23,653 nt of DNA, taken from positions 1 through 23,653 of IMG/VR virus record IMGVR_UViG_3300024348_000255. One strand, given 5' to 3'. The notes beneath the pieces are model-generated. The model was given only the letters and a program-made list of their open reading frames with translations. It was not told where the DNA came from and ran no database searches. This document shows, one piece after another, positions 1,852 to 8,648 of the stretch. A program made the position numbers and the translations under genes. This DNA is from a virus. The stretch's first letter is position 1. Every line of letters begins with the position of its first letter.

Positions 1852-2540
1852 TGCTGTATCCTAACATAATTGAATACTGTTTCTTTACAGTCACTAAATT
1901 TACTAATATCATGTGTTTTAACTTTACCAGTAAGCATAGCATCTTTCCCTTCAATAATACCTGAAATATCAGGCTCTTTATTAAAGAAGAATTTAATAAT
2001 ATTTTTATTATTATCAACACAAGTTACCAAGTGTATTGAATACTTACTAATGAATTTAACATCTTTAATATGTACAGCGAGCTTAATACGATCCCCAATA
2101 ACACCAACGAATTCACTAGTTTTACGATGTGCATCAAACCATTCATCAAGTGTTTGTCGTTTAGACTGTACTCTAAAACTATTAGGCAAACTTGCTAGTA
2201 CAGCAACACCAAATGCCTCAACAGTTTCATTACTGATGCTTTGTAAAACATTTGTTTCAAAGTCATTAATGCGTCCTGACATTTTCTTGCCAATTAATTC
2301 TAATTTAAAACTTTCAATAATTTCTTCAACTTGTGTCATTATATCCTGATCAATTTCTGGCATTTCTGCTTCGCCATTGATATAATTCATAATAGTTGTT
2401 TTATTATCATATATCATAGTAGCATTTTCTTGATCATAATAACCATAACCGCTCTTAACAAAACCTTGTGCTTTATCAACATAGATGGCTAATTGAAGGA
2501 TCTGCTGAGTGTTATATGTTGGTTTTTGTCGCTTTGTCAT
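1848..2540 (-). CDS. Unrecognised phage protein with possible C-terminal OB-fold
   Basis: A 230-residue protein. The N-terminal 140 residues are helical in character. From about residue 148, a segment starting GVIGDRIKL and continuing with alternating beta-like stretches (FFFNKEPDISGIIEGKD, then MLTGKVKTHD and TVFNYVRI) looks like the small OB-fold repeats seen in phage and DNA-binding proteins, where a GKVK-type turn precedes the last strands. This is a pattern-based inference. The start has AAGGA at 7 bases and an early promoter at 2569-2596. It is translationally coupled to the downstream 2OG oxygenase. Confidence 0.6.
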   Translation of the reverse strand: MTKRQKPTYNTQQILQLAIYVDKAQGFVKSGYGYYDQENATMIYDNKTTIMNYINGEAEMPEIDQDIMTQVEEIIESFKLELIGKKMSGRINDFETNVLQSISNETVEAFGVAVLASLPNSFRVQSKRQTLDEWFDAHRKTSEFVGVIGDRIKLAVHIKDVKFISKYSIHLVTCVDNNKNIIKFFFNKEPDISGIIEGKDAMLTGKVKTHDISKFSDCKETVFNYVRIQQ

Positions 2541-2566
2541 TTTCTTATCCTTGTTTTTTCTTATTT

Positions 2567-2710
2567 TTATAGTAGCACTGGAAATATTAATGTCAATAAT
2601 ATAATAGTGTATATTACGACTTTTATAGTGCTTGGCTTTTTAAAGCTAGTGGTAAATGTGTGTTGAAGATCACGTTCTGCCGCTTCAACACTTAGGTACT
2701 CAGGTTCCAT
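2567..2710 (-). CDS. 47-residue tail-anchored membrane protein, hypothetical
   Basis: A short reading frame whose ATG overlaps the stop codon of the upstream gene in the arrangement TAATG (TAA at 2710-2712, ATG at 2708-2710), a configuration typical of translational re-initiation. The product starts MEPEYLSVEAAERDLQ, has a polar, probably helical first half, then KKPSTIK and a C-terminal hydrophobic run of about 17 residues ending FPVLL, so it would be a single-pass, C-terminally anchored inner-membrane protein. It is too short for usual gene callers. Its end contains the -10 region of the next promoter. No function can be assigned. Confidence 0.6.
   Translation of the reverse strand: MEPEYLSVEAAERDLQHTFTTSFKKPSTIKVVIYTIILLTLIFPVLL
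2569..2596 (-). promoter_or_regulatory. Early promoter of the OB-fold-like / 2OG oxygenase pair
   Basis: -35 TTGACA at 2591-2596, 16-base spacer ending TGC, -10 TACTAT at 2569-2574 (an alternative -10, TATAAA, lies 3 bases further on). Same TGC-TAT extended -10 form as the promoters at 1255 and 8220. Confidence 0.65.
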
Positions 2711-3261
2711 TACGCATATTCATTATAAACATGTTGCCACATTTGGCTAATGTTCATAATCTCACTGTCTACTTTAAGTGCAAAATTTGAAATACGATTT
2801 GCAGTCAGATCTACTTCACCTTTGTAAAAACAATCTTGCAACATGTTAACTGCATGGTTTTTAACTTGTGCATGCCGTAGATTTTCAATCTTTGTGGCAC
2901 GCCATTTGCTTCCTGTATATTTTCCAGTTTGTGTACGGAACCGAGGATGCCGACTAATACAAGTATAACCTTCATCTTCTAACAGTTTAGCATAAATTTC
3001 TGCTTGTGCTTTTGATTCGTCTATGCTTACGTCTCCTAGTTCAACGTAGTCTACATCCCAATCTGTTTGGTTTGTACACATTGCTACACGAAACAAGCTA
3101 CTACTTGCACTACCTTGTGAATTGTCTTTACCTGATAGTGCATCTTTAGCTTTACTATACAAGTTGGTTACATTAACATTTTTACGCCAGTTAACTTGAG
3201 AAGTAGTCCAAATATGGAAAATATTTTCTGCATCGTTTTTAAAAACTGCTAGGGTATACAT
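2710..3261 (-). CDS. Conserved-looking hypothetical phage protein
   Basis: A 183-residue soluble protein that I do not recognise. It has no signal peptide or membrane segment. It contains a Ser/Gly-rich stretch near residue 50 (GKDNSQGSASSS), then an acidic segment, and a basic Arg/Lys-rich middle (SRHPRFRTQTGKY). The frame could begin 6 bases earlier at 3267, but there AAGGA is only 1 base from the ATG; from the ATG at 3261 the spacing is 7 bases, so 3261 is preferred. It has its own promoter with an operator-like palindrome (3292-3320) and is coupled by TAATG overlap to the 47-aa membrane protein. Confidence 0.65.
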   Translation of the reverse strand: MYTLAVFKNDAENIFHIWTTSQVNWRKNVNVTNLYSKAKDALSGKDNSQGSASSSLFRVAMCTNQTDWDVDYVELGDVSIDESKAQAEIYAKLLEDEGYTCISRHPRFRTQTGKYTGSKWRATKIENLRHAQVKNHAVNMLQDCFYKGEVDLTANRISNFALKVDSEIMNISQMWQHVYNEYA

Positions 3262-3291
3262 ATTCATTTCCTTTTTGTTTAACTTACGTGC

Positions 3292-3320
3292 AAGTTAACA
3301 CCGAGATATCTCGGTGTCAA
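3292..3320 (-). promoter_or_regulatory. Early promoter with embedded 20-bp palindrome (operator candidate A)
   Basis: -35 TTGACA at 3315-3320, 17-base spacer, weak -10 TAACTT at 3292-3297. The spacer together with the last three -35 bases is a perfect palindrome, ACACCGAGATATCTCGGTGT at 3298-3317. The same layout occurs at 3748-3776. A protein bound here would block RNA polymerase, or the palindrome could bind an activator that compensates for the weak -10. Confidence 0.6.
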
Positions 3321-3332
3321 CCTCTTATTTTA

Positions 3333-3716
3333 TTATGCGTAGTCGTATGCACAATGTGGACTAGTATAACCACGGCGAGCTTCTTGCTTTGCTTTGAAAG
3401 CAAACATCACTTTGTAATACCAGTCCTCATTTTTGTTTTTAAGGATTTGTAATGGTGAGCTGTCAAGACCATCTTTTGCTCTCTCAGCTACATACTCTTC
3501 AACTGTGAAGTTTTTAATAAGTTGTGCAAGGAATTTAGCTTTAGTAAATGGCGTTCCTGAATACTTGAAACGTGCAATAAACAAATCAATTCCACGTCCA
3601 ACATTACTGGGGTGAACATTTTTACCTGCTTCATAAACTGGACGACCTTCATAATCGCCTGTGTACATTAAGTATCCGCCATGGTAGCTAAAATCTGCTT
3701 TATTAAACTGTGTCAT
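3333..3716 (-). CDS. Hypothetical phage protein behind an operator-type promoter
   Basis: A 127-residue soluble protein beginning MTQFNKADFSYHGGYLMYTG. It is rich in aromatic residues and lysine, with a helical second half (VEEYVAERAKDGL). I do not recognise the family. The open frame starts 6 bases earlier with a TTG at 3722, but that codon abuts the GGAG ribosome site; the ATG at 3716 has a 6-base spacing and is chosen. It is transcribed divergently from the HNH gene. Its promoter carries the second 20-bp palindrome, suggesting shared control with the gene at 2710-3261. Confidence 0.65.
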   Translation of the reverse strand: MTQFNKADFSYHGGYLMYTGDYEGRPVYEAGKNVHPSNVGRGIDLFIARFKYSGTPFTKAKFLAQLIKNFTVEEYVAERAKDGLDSSPLQILKNKNEDWYYKVMFAFKAKQEARRGYTSPHCAYDYA

Positions 3717-3747
3717 GTTCAACTCCGTTTGTTTAACTTATGTATAT

Positions 3748-3776
3748 GTTCTAACACCAATACGTCTTGGTGTCAA
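3748..3776 (-). promoter_or_regulatory. Early promoter with embedded 20-bp palindrome (operator candidate B)
   Basis: -35 TTGACA at 3771-3776, 17-base spacer, -10 TAGAAC at 3748-3753; predicted start near 3741, leader about 25 bases. ACACCAATACGTCTTGGTGT (3754-3773, plus strand) is palindromic apart from one base pair and occupies exactly the position of palindrome A relative to the -35. Both promoters are also followed by the shared sequence TAAGTTAAACAAA. Confidence 0.65.
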
Positions 3777-3800
3777 CAATAAAAGTGAACTTTTTTAACC

Positions 3801-3808
3801 TATAAATA
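3801..3808 (+). promoter_or_regulatory. T4-type late promoter of the HNH gene
   Basis: TATAAATA, the exact T4 late promoter -10 element, lies 25 bases upstream of the HNH start codon with no sigma70 -35 box at the right distance. Late T4-type promoters are read by RNA polymerase carrying gp55, so the HNH gene would be expressed late. Confidence 0.65.
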
Positions 3809-3833
3809 TTATTATATCAAAAAGGAATATCAC

Positions 3834-4343
3834 TTGGCAGACACACTGTTATTAAACGCAGATGCACAACCAGTTTCATACTTACCAATTAGCGCAATAC
3901 AATGGAAAGAAGCAATTACATACCTTTGGCTTGATAAAGTACATGTACTAGAATGGTATGATGATTGGATGGTAAGATCAGAAAAGTGGGAGACTCGAGT
4001 CCCGGCTGTAATGATGCTTAAAGAAATGCAGCGGAGGAAATCTAATCCAAGATTTTCAAAAGTAAACTTATATATACGTGATGTATATACTTGCCAGTAT
4101 TGTAATACACCCTATGGTAAAAGCAATCTAACATTAGATCATGTTTTACCACTAAGCAAGGGAGGAAAAACATCATGGGAGAACATTGTAGCTGCATGCG
4201 GTCCATGCAATCACAGTAAAGGTGACAAAACGCATATGAAACCAATCAAAGTTCCGTATGCGCCTGATTATTACGATCTTGTTAATAAACGTAAACAACT
4301 AGATATGAATATTCAACATCCTAGTTGGAGTTCTTACCTCTAA
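3834..4343 (+). CDS. HNH endonuclease, free-standing
   Basis: A 169-residue protein and the only plus-strand gene in the window. The C-terminal half is a zinc-stabilised HNH nuclease: CQYC (C87, C90), LDHVLPLSKGG (D102, H103), N117 and CGPCNHSKGDKT (C122, C125, N126). All catalytic and zinc-ligand positions are intact. The N-terminal half has the usual layout of this bacterial/phage HNH family (a short strand-rich segment with LNADAQP). The start is TTG, with AAGGA 7 bases upstream; no nearby ATG fits. Its last codon overlaps, tail to tail, the stop of the membrane protein at 4340-4753. Opposite orientation and its own late promoter suggest an independently acquired gene, perhaps a homing endonuclease, but a role in packaging or host DNA breakdown is also possible. 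Confidence 0.9.
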   Translation: MADTLLLNADAQPVSYLPISAIQWKEAITYLWLDKVHVLEWYDDWMVRSEKWETRVPAVMMLKEMQRRKSNPRFSKVNLYIRDVYTCQYCNTPYGKSNLTLDHVLPLSKGGKTSWENIVAACGPCNHSKGDKTHMKPIKVPYAPDYYDLVNKRKQLDMNIQHPSWSSYL

Positions 4344-4753
4344 CGTATCCAAGCTATTTTTTCACCAGCGGCTGTTCTGCGTTCTTGTTCAGCAACTGTG
4401 CCTGGATATCTCCACGCCCAGATTGCGACCAGTGCCATAAAACCACCGCTCCATACAACTGCCATAATATTGCCAGTAGTAAACCAAAGAAATGCAAGTG
4501 ATGATGACATCACAATTACCATTGCATATTTTCCCTTGGTTGGAAATACTCTTTTCTCTACCCAATTAGTTAAAAACGGGCCAAAGTATTTGTGATTGTA
4601 TAACCAATCGTGCATACGTTTACTAGACTTAGCAAATGCCCAAGCTGCAATAACCAAGAAGATACTAAATGGTATCCCTGGTACTACAACTCCAACGTAG
4701 GCCATACCTAGACATAAAAATCCTAGAGCCATGTACAAATATTTTTTAATCAT
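4340..4753 (-). CDS. YbaN-like (DUF454) inner-membrane protein
   Basis: A 137-residue integral membrane protein. Residues 5-40 hold two hydrophobic segments around the family signature (GFLCLG...GVVVPGIPFSIFLVIAAWAFAKSS), followed by RMHDWLYNHKYFGPFL, which matches the DUF454/YbaN pattern of LP.P-type turns and a WL.NH.YFGP segment. Two further membrane segments span about residues 75-115. The molecular role of DUF454 proteins is not established. The ATG has AAGGA upstream and overlaps the preceding gene by 8 bases. Presence in a phage suggests a host-derived accessory gene acting on the cell envelope. Confidence 0.8.
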   Translation of the reverse strand: MIKKYLYMALGFLCLGMAYVGVVVPGIPFSIFLVIAAWAFAKSSKRMHDWLYNHKYFGPFLTNWVEKRVFPTKGKYAMVIVMSSSLAFLWFTTGNIMAVVWSGGFMALVAIWAWRYPGTVAEQERRTAAGEKIAWIR

Positions 4754-4994
4754 TTACTTTCCTTATTTGATTGGCATATTCAACTGAATGTTTTCTTACT
4801 ACTTCATTGGTTAAAATACCGTTAATATAATTGTTAGCTGCATCCTTTACATAATGAAAACTATTATCAGGATAATGTATAGTTCCAATATGTTCATTAT
4901 TTTCATAACAAACTAGCATTAATACTTCATCATCCATTATGCTAATAGATGCAGTTTTATTATTTTCTTTATTTTTAAATTCATTATAAGACAT
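4746..4994 (-). CDS. Small hypothetical protein
   Basis: An 82-residue soluble protein starting MSYNEFKNKENNKTASISIM, rich in Asn, Glu and Lys, with a beta-like centre (DDEVLMLVCYENNEHIGTI) and a helical C-terminus. Not recognised. The ATG has AGGA 6 bases upstream. It lies 8 bases after the HAD phosphatase gene and overlaps the YbaN-like gene, so the three are probably co-transcribed. Confidence 0.6.
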   Translation of the reverse strand: MSYNEFKNKENNKTASISIMDDEVLMLVCYENNEHIGTIHYPDNSFHYVKDAANNYINGILTNEVVRKHSVEYANQIRKVND

Positions 4995-5002
4995 CTTAAT
5001 TC

Positions 5003-5608
5003 CTACGTAATAGCATCAGCTAATGCACTTAGTGAGTCAACCACTGATACTTTCTTTGCAATAGAACGATACGTAAATTTATGAAGTTCCTTTTCTGTAG
5101 CTTCTCCATAACCAGTTCTAACTAAAATTGGTCGAGCTCCTATCTTAACAGCGGCTTTCATGTCAGAAAGTTTATCTCCAACATATAATCCACTTTTAAA
5201 TTTTATATGTGGATGTTCTTTTTGGCAACGCTGAAACATGCCTAAATTTGGCTTAGCGTAAATATCGTCTTTTCGACTACTAGTACTATAATATAGTGCA
5301 TCAATACTACTGCATCCAGCCTTCCCTAGAAGTTCAAACATATACTCATGAAGTTTATCTACATCAGCTGGAGTAAACAAACCTTTTTCAATACCACCTT
5401 GATTGGTGATGATCACAATTTTATGTCCTGCATTGCGTAACCTAGCTATTGCTTCTATACTACCAGGTATAGGCTGGAAGTCAGCAGATCTAAATGTGTA
5501 AGTTCCTCGGTCCACATTAATTACACCATCTCTGTCCAGACCAATAACACACTTATCATATAAAGAAATATTGTTACTAACTTGACCTAGTTCTGTAATA
5601 TTAGCCAT
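5003..5608 (-). CDS. HAD phosphatase, GmhB-like (histidinol-P/heptose-bisphosphatase group)
   Basis: A 201-residue HAD-superfamily phosphatase. Motif I is LDRDGVIN (nucleophile D25, acid/base D27), motif II is ITNQGG (T68), motif III Lys is in AKPNLGMF (K119) and motif IV is VGDKLSDM (D145, D149). The compact cap and TNQ signature place it with D-glycero-D-manno-heptose-1,7-bisphosphate 7-phosphatase (GmhB) and the histidinol-phosphatase domain. The zinc-binding CPH...C.CRKP loop of typical GmhB is replaced by YYSTSSRKDDIYAKP with no cysteine, so the zinc site is lost. GmhB acts in ADP-heptose synthesis for lipopolysaccharide, but with the altered loop the substrate here is uncertain; another sugar or nucleotide bisphosphate is possible. 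No clear ribosome site precedes the ATG. Confidence 0.82.
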   Translation of the reverse strand: MANITELGQVSNNISLYDKCVIGLDRDGVINVDRGTYTFRSADFQPIPGSIEAIARLRNAGHKIVIITNQGGIEKGLFTPADVDKLHEYMFELLGKAGCSSIDALYYSTSSRKDDIYAKPNLGMFQRCQKEHPHIKFKSGLYVGDKLSDMKAAVKIGARPILVRTGYGEATEKELHKFTYRSIAKKVSVVDSLSALADAIT

Positions 5609-5642
5609 CTACAATTAATATCTTTTCTTTATTTTAGCTAAT

Positions 5643-5843
5643 TTAGCTAAAATGTACATTTAACATTTCAATACGATCAGTTGCCGCGGCCATTTTATCA
5701 AGTTCTTCTTGAATAGCCTCAACAATATCACTGTGTTCACCAATACCTACACTATTGTTCATGTACACCATGATGTTAGTCTTTGCACGTTCTAGCTCAC
5801 CTTCAGCATGCATACGTGCGGCTTTTACTAATTGTTCTTTCAT
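5643..5843 (-). CDS. Conserved small T4-like marine phage protein, unknown function
   Basis: A 66-residue mostly helical protein beginning MKEQLVKAARMHAEGELERA and containing VGIGEHSDIVEAIQEELDKM. From memory, short proteins with this AHAEG...VGIGEH.DI...EELDK pattern recur in cyanophages, always as hypotheticals. GGAG lies about 10 bases before the ATG. The gene sits between the small membrane protein and the HAD phosphatase. Confidence 0.7.
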   Translation of the reverse strand: MKEQLVKAARMHAEGELERAKTNIMVYMNNSVGIGEHSDIVEAIQEELDKMAAATDRIEMLNVHFS

Positions 5844-5856
5844 CTTTGTTTCTCCG

Positions 5857-6288
5857 TTAATTATGTTCGCCGCCTAAACCGCGGCCATTATATGCGCCAA
5901 ACATATTTGGTTTACGTTTGGCTGTTTCAAATGTTGCTACTGTAATTGCAATAGCTCCTATCAATACTACATGTATCATCATAGAAACTACTCCTGCCCA
6001 CATACTACCTACAATAAATGCAAATGTAATACACCACATCCATGCAAGTACTTGCATAATCATATGTCGTGTGCTGAAGTCTGGAATGTTACATAGCGGA
6101 TTCTTTTCATGATCCATTACTACATTCCAACAATCATAAACCCATTCTTTCATCGAAATTACCTTTCTAAAAGTTACTTTTAATGGATAATGTGCATCGA
6201 CGTCATCACGATATTCAATTGCATCGTTCACATCATGAAACTCTTCTGAGACTTTACGATCTTTAAACCATGCTGTTACTCTATACAT
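5857..6288 (-). CDS. Small membrane protein of marine T4-like phages
   Basis: A 143-residue protein with a soluble N-terminal part (MYRVTAWFKDRKVSEEFHDV) and two hydrophobic segments at about residues 77-98 and 100-120, ending in a polar tail. The part starting MKEWVYDCWNVVMDHEKNPL is the portion I recall as conserved in related phages. The annotated ATG at 6288 has no ribosome site and follows tRNA-Thr by only 20 bases. An internal ATG at 6153 (residue 46) has AAAGG 8 bases upstream and would give a 98-residue protein beginning MKEW. Either form or both may be made. Function unknown. Confidence 0.65.
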   Translation of the reverse strand: MYRVTAWFKDRKVSEEFHDVNDAIEYRDDVDAHYPLKVTFRKVISMKEWVYDCWNVVMDHEKNPLCNIPDFSTRHMIMQVLAWMWCITFAFIVGSMWAGVVSMMIHVVLIGAIAITVATFETAKRKPNMFGAYNGRGLGGEHN

Positions 6289-6308: not shown

Positions 6309-6384
6309 TGGTGCCGCAACCAAGATTCGAACTCGGGACCTACTGATTACAAATCAGTTGCTCTACCAACTGAGCTATTGCGGC
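6309..6384 (-). tRNA. tRNA-Thr (UGU)
   Basis: A 76-base cloverleaf with acceptor GCCGCAA/TTGCGGC, D arm AGCTCAGTTGG, anticodon arm CTGAT-TTGTAAT-CAG with UGU anticodon, T loop TTCGAAT, A73 and an encoded CCA. It reads ACA and related Thr codons. Its 5' end is one base from the stop codon of the 24-codon zinc-ribbon gene. Confidence 0.95.
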
Positions 6385-6385
6385 G

Positions 6386-6460
6386 TTATCGTTTTACTCT
6401 GCAATTAGGACAAAAATCGTTATGACCTAATTCTGTTTTACAATCTGGACAAGTTTTCAT
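6386..6460 (-). CDS. 24-residue zinc-ribbon microprotein
   Basis: A complete frame encoding MKTCPDCKTELGHNDFCPNC followed by RVKR. The two CPxC knuckles, 10 residues apart, are the four ligands of a minimal zinc ribbon. It fits exactly between tRNA-Leu and tRNA-Thr, ending one base before the tRNA-Thr gene. Ribosome-site support is weak (GGA about 13 bases upstream), so the evidence is the motif itself and the absence of any other use for the gap. It could bind nucleic acid or a protein partner; it may also be a remnant of a larger zinc-ribbon protein. Confidence 0.55.
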   Translation of the reverse strand: MKTCPDCKTELGHNDFCPNCRVKR

Positions 6461-6485
6461 AAAAATACTTATCCGTGGTTTAATT

Positions 6486-6569
6486 TGGTACTCGCACCCG
6501 GACTCGAACCGGGACGCCTTACGGCCACAGATTTTAAGTCTGTTATGTCTACCATTCCATCATGCGAGC
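6486..6569 (-). tRNA. tRNA-Leu (UAA)
   Basis: An 84-base class II tRNA with long variable arm. The acceptor GCTCGCA pairs with TGCGAGT with a G1-U72 wobble; anticodon loop CTTAAAA gives UAA; T loop TTCGAGT; A73 and an encoded CCA. It reads UUA/UUG, which suits AT-rich phage codon use. Confidence 0.93.
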
Positions 6570-6572
6570 ATC

Positions 6573-6662
6573 TGGCAGTGAGGGTGGGATTCGAACCCAC
6601 GGAACGCTTGCACGTTCTCCGGATTAGTAATCCGGCGCTTTCGGCCACTCAGCCACCTCACC
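6573..6662 (-). tRNA. tRNA-Ser with ACU anticodon
   Basis: A 90-base class II tRNA: acceptor GGTGAGG with CCTCACT (G1-U72 wobble), D arm GGCTGAGTGGCC, anticodon stem CCGGA/TCCGG, long variable arm GAACGTGCAAGCGTTC, T loop TTCGAAT, G73 typical of Ser, and encoded CCA. The 7-base anticodon loop is TTACTAA, so the anticodon is ACU (A34), matching the Ser codon AGU. Bacterial Ser tRNAs for AGU/AGC normally carry GCU. Confidence 0.9.
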
Positions 6663-6852
6663 TTAACACTTGTAGGATTCAGGAAGGTCACTAGGTAATT
6701 ACTCCTATTAATTTCCAACGCCTGTCGAAGCTAGATATGACTATGCATAGATTTTAACTATCTAGTCTTCCGACGATTTTCCTACTGTACAAAGAACGTT
6801 GCAGTTTACTCTTATCAGTTTATTCCTGCGGTGTTCTCTGCACCATAAACTT
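6663..6852 (-). other. Structured non-coding gap inside the tRNA cluster
   Basis: These 190 bases lie between tRNA-Ser and tRNA-Trp and hold no credible gene or seventh tRNA (no acceptable T arm). They contain a long imperfect hairpin: GTCGAAGCTAGATA (6724-6737) pairs with the segment from 6759 to 6774 (TATCTAG, one bulge, CTT, one bulge, CGAC), with a loop that holds the palindrome CTATGCATAG. A second, shorter hairpin pairs 6694-6701 with 6709-6716 (one mismatch). The region would be transcribed with the tRNAs. It may be an uncharacterised small RNA, a tRNA-processing spacer or a decayed tRNA. Confidence 0.6.
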
Positions 6853-6926
6853 TGGCAAAGGTGAGGAGAATCGAACTCCTGCTTCTGGTTTTGGAGACCA
6901 GCGTGATACCATTTCACCACACCCTT
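6853..6926 (-). tRNA. tRNA-Trp (CCA)
   Basis: A 74-base tRNA: acceptor AAGGGTG/CACCTTT with a G-U pair, anticodon stem CTGGT/ACCAG with loop CTCCAAA (anticodon CCA), T arm GGAGTTCGATTCTCC, G73 and encoded CCA. The D loop is short. Confidence 0.92.
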
Positions 6927-6931
6927 ATAAT

Positions 6932-7008
6932 TGGTACTCCCCACAGGACTCGAACCTGTAACCAAAACGTTATGAGCGTTCTGCTCTAACCAATTGAGCT
7001 AGAGGAGT
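6932..7008 (-). tRNA. tRNA with CAU anticodon (Met; Ile2 possible)
   Basis: A 77-base tRNA: acceptor ACTCCTC/GGGGAGT with one G-U pair, D arm AGCTCAATTGGTTAGAGC, anticodon loop CTCATAA (CAU), T loop TTCGAGT, A73 and encoded CCA. The paired first base argues against initiator Met. A CAU tRNA can be elongator Met or, if C34 is lysidinylated, Ile for AUA; sequence alone does not settle this. Confidence 0.9.
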
Positions 7009-7016
7009 ACATATTC

Positions 7017-7093
7017 TGGCGGACCCTAGAGGATTCGAACCTCTGACCTAGTGCTTAGAAGGCACTTGCTCTATCCAGCTGAGCTAAGGGACC
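7017..7093 (-). tRNA. tRNA-Arg (UCU)
   Basis: A 77-base tRNA: anticodon stem AGTGC/GCACT, loop CTTCTAA (UCU), T arm AGAGGTTCGAATCCTCT, G73 and encoded CCA. The acceptor GGTCCCT faces AGGGTCC, leaving a U3-U70 mismatch. Its first 10 bases are also the last codons and stop of the SGNH hydrolase gene. It reads AGA/AGG, and is the first tRNA after the promoter at 7142-7170. Confidence 0.9.
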
Positions 7094-7947: not shown

Positions 7948-8184
7948 TTAAAATGCCATTTCAATTTGTGTATCAACAGCAACTTCTTCTTCTTCATTTG
8001 CAATAATAGCTGACACAATTTCATCAAATGATTCATAAAACTGTTCATCATCTTTCCAGAAAGAACGACATTCTGCGTATGCATCTGCATCCACGAAGCT
8101 CCAATTAATAGAACCATCTTCATTAAGGTTCTCTTCTTTTTCAATTGCGTCACGGATTTCGATTTCTAACATTGAGTGAATCAT
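7948..8184 (-). CDS. Small acidic hypothetical protein
   Basis: A 78-residue, strongly acidic protein (MIHSMLEIEIRDAIEKEENL at the start, EEEEVAVDTQIEMAF near the end). No recognisable family. AAAGGA lies about 8 bases before the ATG, and it has its own strong early promoter at 8220-8248. Small acidic early phage proteins are often inhibitors or DNA mimics, but nothing here proves such a role. It is coupled to the SGNH gene. Confidence 0.65.
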   Translation of the reverse strand: MIHSMLEIEIRDAIEKEENLNEDGSINWSFVDADAYAECRSFWKDDEQFYESFDEIVSAIIANEEEEVAVDTQIEMAF

Positions 8185-8219: not shown

Positions 8220-8248
8220 TATATAGCATCAAGAGTTCCTAGTGTCAA
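8220..8248 (-). promoter_or_regulatory. Strong early promoter upstream of the 78-aa acidic protein
   Basis: -35 TTGACA at 8243-8248, 17-base spacer ending TGC (extended -10), -10 TATATA at 8220-8225. Predicted start near 8213 gives a 29-base leader. The -35 lies within the last codons of the metallopeptidase gene. Confidence 0.8.
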
Positions 8249-8621
8249 CACTGTTATTAAAACTTTCTAACATTTTTTCTTGTTCAGCATATGCTTCAAT
8301 CTCCCAAGGACGGTCAAAATAAGGAATGTCACTAGGCTCAAACATTGGAAACTCTTTACGTACTGCCTGCTTTACATGTACCATTTCGTGAAAGATAGCA
8401 GTAATCAAATCTTCGTAGCTAAGTCCTTTGCGAACTCTTAGTTCATATTCTCTATCATCATCACCATCTAATAGATCTGCTTCAGCACTTAGTCCAGATG
8501 CAATTTCAACATCAACTGTTAGTTTACGATGCCTGGGAAGTAGATATGATTTAGCAAACCAAAGTGCTTCAGTTACCGCTGCACGTTCTTTTTTAGTTCC
8601 GCCAATTACTGAATAAAGCAT
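8229..8621 (-). CDS. Small HExxH zinc metallopeptidase-like protein
   Basis: A 130-residue protein with the zinc-binding helix ITAIFHEMVHVKQ (HEMVH at about residues 78-82) and a downstream WEIEAYAEQ, whose Glu (about residue 109) is the likely third ligand, the arrangement of minimal gluzincin-type or SprT-like domains. All catalytic residues look intact. The frame begins at 8630, but there GGAG touches the ATG; the ATG at 8621 has a 9-base spacing and is preferred. It may cleave a host or virion protein; substrate unknown. It has its own promoter (8649-8677). Confidence 0.75.
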   Translation of the reverse strand: MLYSVIGGTKKERAAVTEALWFAKSYLLPRHRKLTVDVEIASGLSAEADLLDGDDDREYELRVRKGLSYEDLITAIFHEMVHVKQAVRKEFPMFEPSDIPYFDRPWEIEAYAEQEKMLESFNNSVDTRNS

Positions 8622-8648
8622 ATGTACCATCTCCGCTATTACTCTTAT

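Follow-up and report, generated by a model that had tools for sequence, protein, structure and literature searches.

What does a 20-bp palindrome do between the −35 and −10 boxes of two neighbouring early promoters of a T4-type phage, and, if it is an operator, which protein reads it? The stretch of DNA analysed here (the window), a 23.7-kb virus record from IMG/VR, belongs by its terminase, tail sheath and RecA-like genes to the T4-type phages; its terminase most resembles those of jumbo phages, among them PA5oct (57%), Phosso (55%) and Atu_ph07 (50%). A first-pass annotation had read the two palindromes as a shared operator of a regulator, set in identical register in two promoters that are followed by the same short sequence and precede two adjacent unrecognised genes. 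The elements concerned, together with a third operator-promoter that this annotation had overlooked and a possible fourth, are as follows.

3298..3317: operator 1, perfect 20-bp palindrome ACACCGAGATATCTCGGTGT, 10/10 pairs
3754..3773: operator 2, ACACCAATACGTCTTGGTGT, reading ACACCAAGACGTATTGGTGT on the gene strand, 9/10 pairs
3320-3292, minus strand: sigma70-type promoter of the 185-aa gene, TTGACA-CCGAGATATCTCGGTGT-TAACTT, its 17-bp spacer being operator 1
3776-3748, minus strand: sigma70-type promoter of the 129-aa gene, TTGACA-CCAAGACGTATTGGTGT-TAGAAC, its 17-bp spacer being operator 2
3274..3286, minus strand: shared leader TAAGTTAAACAAA after promoter 1, read from the sequence
3728..3740, minus strand: shared leader TAAGTTAAACAAA after promoter 2, read from the sequence
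2710..3267, minus strand: P0001, 185-aa ORF, no Pfam or PHROG match
3333..3716, minus strand: P0002, 127-aa ORF (129 aa from the TTG at 3722), phrog_22119 (unknown function)
8677-8649, minus strand: third, weaker operator-promoter, TTGACT-ACCAATACGTCTTACTA-TATGGT
8229..8630, minus strand: 133-aa ORF behind the third operator-promoter, with HEMVH seen by eye
8220..8248, minus strand: possible degenerate fourth copy, TTGACA-CTAGGAACTCTTGATGC-TATATA, before the ORF at 7948-8184

The basic layout is as it had been described: both palindromes start at the third-last base of TTGACA and fill the 17-base spacer, the window sequence carries the leader behind both promoters, and two adjacent small unrecognised genes lie downstream as minus-strand ORFs at 2710-3267 and 3333-3716/3722. 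The promoters agree with the sigma70 type (TTGACA, a spacer of 16-18 bp and a TATAAT-like −10 box) in their exact −35 box and 17-bp spacer; the −10 boxes are weak in the window, where TAACTT agrees with TATAAT at three of six positions (by eye) and TAGAAC at four of six, and near consensus in relatives. In T4 middle promoters, as the cited passages of a T4 review describe them, the −35 box is replaced by a MotA box (PMC2988021), whereas TTGACA is intact at both window sites. The leader, or a close form of it, also follows a number of the relatives' operator-promoters; it lies about where transcription is expected to start and is perhaps a conserved initial transcribed sequence. Since the −10 box predicts a start downstream of the palindrome, the palindrome itself should not act as an RNA hairpin. 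An AlphaFold2 model of P0002 (mean pLDDT 87.9) found structural matches solely among uncharacterized phage proteins, so that no function was gained, and the best Pfam match of the 133-aa ORF at 8229..8630, DUF3920 (E 0.026), is below its cut-off. Divergent from the operator-controlled pair lies an HNH endonuclease gene (3834-4343, plus strand), about 92% identical in record G001 and about 91% in G005, and six clustered tRNA genes (Thr, Leu, Ser, Trp, Met, Arg) occupy 6309-7093 on the minus strand. A near-identity search of the phage collection with window positions 2500-6000 gave no match.

The two operators are the only 20-base windows in the stretch with at least 9/10 pairs. Under a first-order Markov model of the window the mean number of such palindromes is 1.12, with two or more in 61 of 200 simulations, and since about one per window is thus expected by chance, palindromicity alone proves nothing. 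The search pattern of the first-pass annotation, allowing up to two mismatches, has 2 matches against a mean of 0.28 in shuffles (2 or more in 5/100), the pattern having itself been derived from the two window sites. The significance of the palindromes rests on their placement in promoters and their recurrence in relatives.

The operator core, AAGANNTCTT, recurs in a clade of uncultured jumbo T4-like phages, inside promoters of the form TTGACA-N17-TATA, while the outer arms vary by lineage (CACCAAGACGTCTTGGTG in that of the window, GTAAGACRTCTTAC or ACCAAGACRTCTTRC in others) and show little covariation. A scan of IMG/VR for TTGACAN{2,4}AAGANNTCTTN{3,5}TATA matched at least 120 stretches, and among those listed a single stretch contained as many as five matches; with its palindrome scrambled, the pattern matched 50 stretches in total, once each. 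Eighty loci (L145-L224) hold 104 such promoters, near-duplicates included, of roughly the form aaaggTTGACA-AGTAAGACRTCTTRCYG-TATAMT. Promoters with the complete core number five in the whole record of G009, twelve in that of G025 and seven in that of G032; nine large records chosen from operator matches, and hence positive by selection (9/9), have it at 44 places, with up to 9 sites in a single 204-kb record. When gapped 4-base inverted repeats in TTGACA spacers were counted without a preset motif, AAGA-N2-TCTT proved the commonest in 4/4 clade records examined, where it is found in 12 of 44 promoters (G025), 7 of 41 (G026), 7 of 25 (G032) and 5 of 23 (G009). One operator is thus repeated at many sites of a phage genome, as in a dispersed regulon, and this recurrence against the scrambled control supports, at the level of sequence, the earlier proposal of a shared operator of a regulator. 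Outside the clade, none of seven cultured phages (PA5oct, Phosso, Atu_ph07, Vibrio 2.275.O, GAP32, 121Q and Melnitz) matches, and the promoters of seven records that encode the 129-aa gene (G006, G007, G011, G012, G017, G019 and G020) contain no complete core, with one 7-of-8 core each in G007 and G019.

Several genes in these large records were recognized by eye. A bS21-like gene (L350:3729-3986, that is G026:163729-163986) stands behind an operator-promoter, TTGACA-AGTAAGAAATCTTACGT-TATACT, and host-like genes for ClpP, ClpX, IF-3 and an iron-sulfur scaffold each occur in several of G025, G026, G030, G032 and G033.

Upstream sequences were also compared among relatives of the two window genes. 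An IMG/VR search with P0001 returned four, G001 to G004. The outcome that the first-pass annotation had named as telling against it, conserved flanking genes with the palindromes lost, is not what is seen inside the clade: before the 185-aa gene the operator is retained in G001 with one base changed and is present in drifted form in G002 (TTGACA-GTAAGACGTCTTGATGT-TATAGT), although G003 and G004, at 56% protein identity, have kept it only in part (TTGACA-TACCGAGATGTCATGCT-TATATT). The arms before this gene read GAGA..TCTC in the window and AAGA..TCTT in G002, and because both arms differ symmetrically the dyad is preserved. Relatives of P0002 are encoded in 206 stretches, of which the best 80 were kept; upstream sequences were inspected at 67 of these 80 loci, and the operator core is present in nine of the 67, in three sequence types, while homologs at greater distance have a different spacer or lack a clear promoter. 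With the core in so few of these upstreams and the others different, the operator is a property of the clade and not of the gene. The 185-aa gene and its promoter, for their part, are missing together from one relative.

2722..3331, minus strand: cassette of the P0001 ORF (minus its last bases) and its operator-promoter, absent as a unit in G005

Identity between the window and G005 is 98% over 1-2721 and 96% over 3332-5834. In G005 the two stretches lie side by side, and the 610 bases with the 185-aa gene and its operator-promoter are absent; the joint falls at the two stop codons, which sit in ten-base stretches resembling each other. A comparison of G001 with G005 gives the same absence of gene plus operator-promoter. 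An early gene was thus gained, or lost, jointly with its switch.

Within the clade, the excess of operators is confined to promoter spacers. Strict sites (YAAGAYNTCTTR) number 84 in 15 records, 59 of them in promoter spacers, or 62 counting three read from the other strand, and the other 22 are close to the count of 18 for a scrambled motif. There is no operator upstream of UvsX (11 upstreams) or gp32 (9), and no TTGAC promoter upstream of the terminase (0/14) or the sheath (0/7). The position of the operator inside the spacer is less strict than the window suggested. Among 226 promoters of distinct context (cores with 8 or 7 of 8 letters, mostly from operator-selected records, close relatives included), the gap from TTGACA to AAGA is 3 in 148, 2 in 53, 8 in 9, 5 in 8, 4 in 6 and 1 in 2, and at gap 8 the right operator half extends into the −10 box. 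An identical register, which the first-pass annotation had taken as a signal in itself, is accordingly no rule of the clade, and we dropped this idea. We take the shifting of the dyad within the spacer to point to steric repression instead.

These positions bear on two other explanations. An activator or polymerase-remodelling factor, MerR-like, could bind the spacer and turn the promoters on, and MerR-type activators do bind at this promoter location; however, a consensus −35 box with 17-bp spacing should need no remodelling, and the operator shifts by up to 7 bases, which makes activation very unlikely in our view. Alternatively, there may be no regulator, the palindrome being a favoured spacer sequence or DNA structure that tunes promoter strength. 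The aaagg flank before TTGACA is conserved too, so that promoter context in general is under selection, but such tuning sits poorly with a dyad whose constant core occurs at several registers, with the symmetric change of its arms between the window and G002, with the excess over the scrambled palindrome and with the many promoters in the same records that have no operator, and we give it hardly any credence.

If a repressor reads the operator, is it encoded by the host or by the phage? A narrower pattern, TTGACANNNAAGAYNTCTTRNNGTATA, has 4 single matches in the GTDB collection, which holds one genome for each of 84,980 species; no sequenced host therefore shows such a promoter family in this register, which makes a phage-encoded regulator more likely. 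Were a host repressor such as MetJ-SAM to read the sites, phage early genes would sense the methionine state of the host, and the commonest core, AGACRTCT, does contain the met box consensus AGACGTCT, the 8-bp core of MetJ operators (PMC12925634). A MetJ regulon, however, is marked by two or more contiguous 8-bp met boxes, and according to the cited passages of the same source the met genes of E. coli as a rule carry two to five, whereas the consensus here is a single core between −35 and −10; the window copies, moreover, read AGATATCT and AGACGTAT, and the four single GTDB matches indicate no regulon of this form there. Control by a host repressor such as MetJ thus appears improbable, and we return to a repressor encoded by the phage.

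Known DNA-binding families were considered in turn. A phage protein of the MetJ family was rejected, none being found in 17 phage records, and the candidate discussed below gives a probability of 1.2% against E. coli MetJ by hhalign. The operators of the P22 c2 and 434 repressors are AAG..CTT-type dyads in early promoters, as here, but HTH_3 is present in none of 15 clade records, and a lambdoid repressor was likewise set aside. RHH_1 occurs in 0/17 clade records and HTH_39 in 7/17, with none in G001, G002 or G005. Among HTH_3, MetJ, RHH_1 and HTH_39, no known DNA-binding family tracks the operator. The HTH_39 protein, a small winged-helix protein encoded at 156159-156398 of G025 and in relatives, near an AAA ATPase gene and behind an operator-promoter, is a second candidate regulator in part of the clade.

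The leading candidate, which we put forward tentatively, is a family of 93-98 aa. It is the broadest small clade-confined protein in our clustering, present in eight lineages and in none of seven outside records, and was not found there in the window or in the partial records G001-G004, G008, G027 and G029. It has no Pfam or PHROG match and no match in cultured phages. The promoter of its own gene offers a further clue: in 23 distinct upstreams, from loci chosen by the protein, 16 have the right operator half TCTT alone, two a near-complete operator, two neither half and three no TTGAC promoter, and with operator-selected records added the 25 upstreams fall into these classes as 16, 2, 4 and 3. 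Such a half operator is expected of a self-limiting repressor, and a weakly regulated target would look alike.

Does the operator follow this family? We chose 16 records through the 93-98-aa protein and not through the operator (16 of 80 loci, mostly longer contigs). TTGACAN{2,8}AAGANNTCTT occurs in 13 of the 16, at 43 sites, while the reversed pattern occurs at 2; the 43 are not all independent, as records overlap and G042/G043, G034/G035 and G046/G049 give the same sites; within each record the sites are confined to one strand. Leaving out G037, itself an operator match, 12 of 15 are positive. The remaining three comprise G039, with a 7-of-8 copy (TTGACA-CCAAGACGTTTTGGTGC-TATATT), G038, where the protein goes with a doubtful operator variant, and G041, where it is present and nothing convincing was seen. 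Because the query profile of the protein was built from operator-bearing records, and because records overlap, this result shows that the clade has the operator, and much less that the operator is linked to the protein. Operators around the 93-98-aa gene number 2.79 per 100 kb (17 of 80 loci), little more than the 2.16 around P0002 homologs (8 of 80), and the co-occurrence of family and operator may be plain clade membership.

Structure prediction gives the candidate an outline. In the model (mean pLDDT 74.9), helices at 23-35, 41-46, 49-63 and 75-88 come after short strands; against the PDB none of 14 aligned chains reached Z 2, and against a viral library the best E was 0.21, with three unnamed matches at Foldseek probabilities of 0.99, 0.90 and 0.90. 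The best PDB sequence match of the profile, KEOPS Pcc1 (E 9.5e-5, about 27 residues), was judged a short beta-alpha likeness and rejected. The family shares the alternating motif R-I-x-A-K-x-E-V-P and, after it, an invariant NKR where a helix begins, an arrangement that we take to resemble ribbon-helix-helix repressors; family and fold searches gave no confirmation.

Weighing these lines of evidence, we consider it probable, judging from sequence, that the palindrome serves as operator for a dimeric repressor which the phage encodes and which keeps host RNA polymerase from early promoters. A homodimeric phage protein, made early, would bind the operator in the promoter spacer, and the bound repressor would keep RNA polymerase away, as the variable register of the operator fits occlusion; blocking would then end the expression of a set of small early genes, with a timing that we likewise infer. 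If the 93-98-aa family is that protein, its own promoter, with one intact operator half, may be subject to weak self-repression. A fuller version of this proposal, which we advance only as a possibility, concerns lytic jumbo T4-type phages: 93-98-aa repressors, perhaps diverged ribbon-helix-helix proteins, would time the early-to-middle switch from the spacers of some ten or more early promoters in each genome, the half operator would let their own gene stay on, and new early genes would join the circuit as cassettes of operator, promoter and ORF. The cassette seen in the window suggests how such phages could add early genes that are already wired in. The operator may also serve as a sequence tag for the early promoters of uncultured jumbo phages, and so predict which unknown genes act first.

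A second palindrome, different from the clade operator, occurs in cultured and hence testable phages. The hexamer AGTACT is present in 903 copies in phage 121Q (L482-L499) and 1011 in phage GAP32 (L500-L517), and is enriched in TTGACA spacers, where it is found in 22 of 91 promoters of 121Q (3.7 expected from genome density) and 11 of 69 of GAP32 (3.1 expected); it often appears as AGTACTG directly before TATAAT.

Repressor sites repeated over a phage genome are already known from temperate phages, as the cited passages of two studies describe (PMC10516654, PMC9283540). In SPbeta, one conserved element, SPBRE, is repeated over the large phage genome and bound by the master repressor MrpR (PMC10516654), and mycobacteriophages carry many dispersed repressor sites, the stoperators (PMC9283540). 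The several dispersed operators of the same sequence in each genome here resemble both, as would be expected if they served an immunity repressor of a temperate or carrier-state phage, on the pattern of SPbeta or the cluster A mycobacteriophages. Contrasting with temperate SPbeta, the present phages are T4-type, their sites lie in sigma70-type spacers, and tyrosine integrase (PF00589, the tyrosine type only) is found in 0 of 14 possibly incomplete records; contrasting with the stoperators, whose recognition sequence is asymmetric in the passages cited (PMC9283540), the element here is a dyad tied to promoter spacers. An immunity function appears unlikely. T4 itself, the textbook lytic phage, likewise has host sigma70 early promoters (PMC2988021). 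According to the cited passages of that review, T4 early transcription still falls rapidly when ModA or AsiA is missing, and the shut-off is put down to strategies as yet unknown; the main text of the review contains no word starting with "operator" or "palindrom", and we found no report of operators in T4-type early promoters among the open-licence PMC texts listed. An operator regulon in T4-type phages, if true, would supply a concrete mechanism of early shut-off in the wider group to which T4 belongs and would make the question of early shut-off testable with a short DNA probe.
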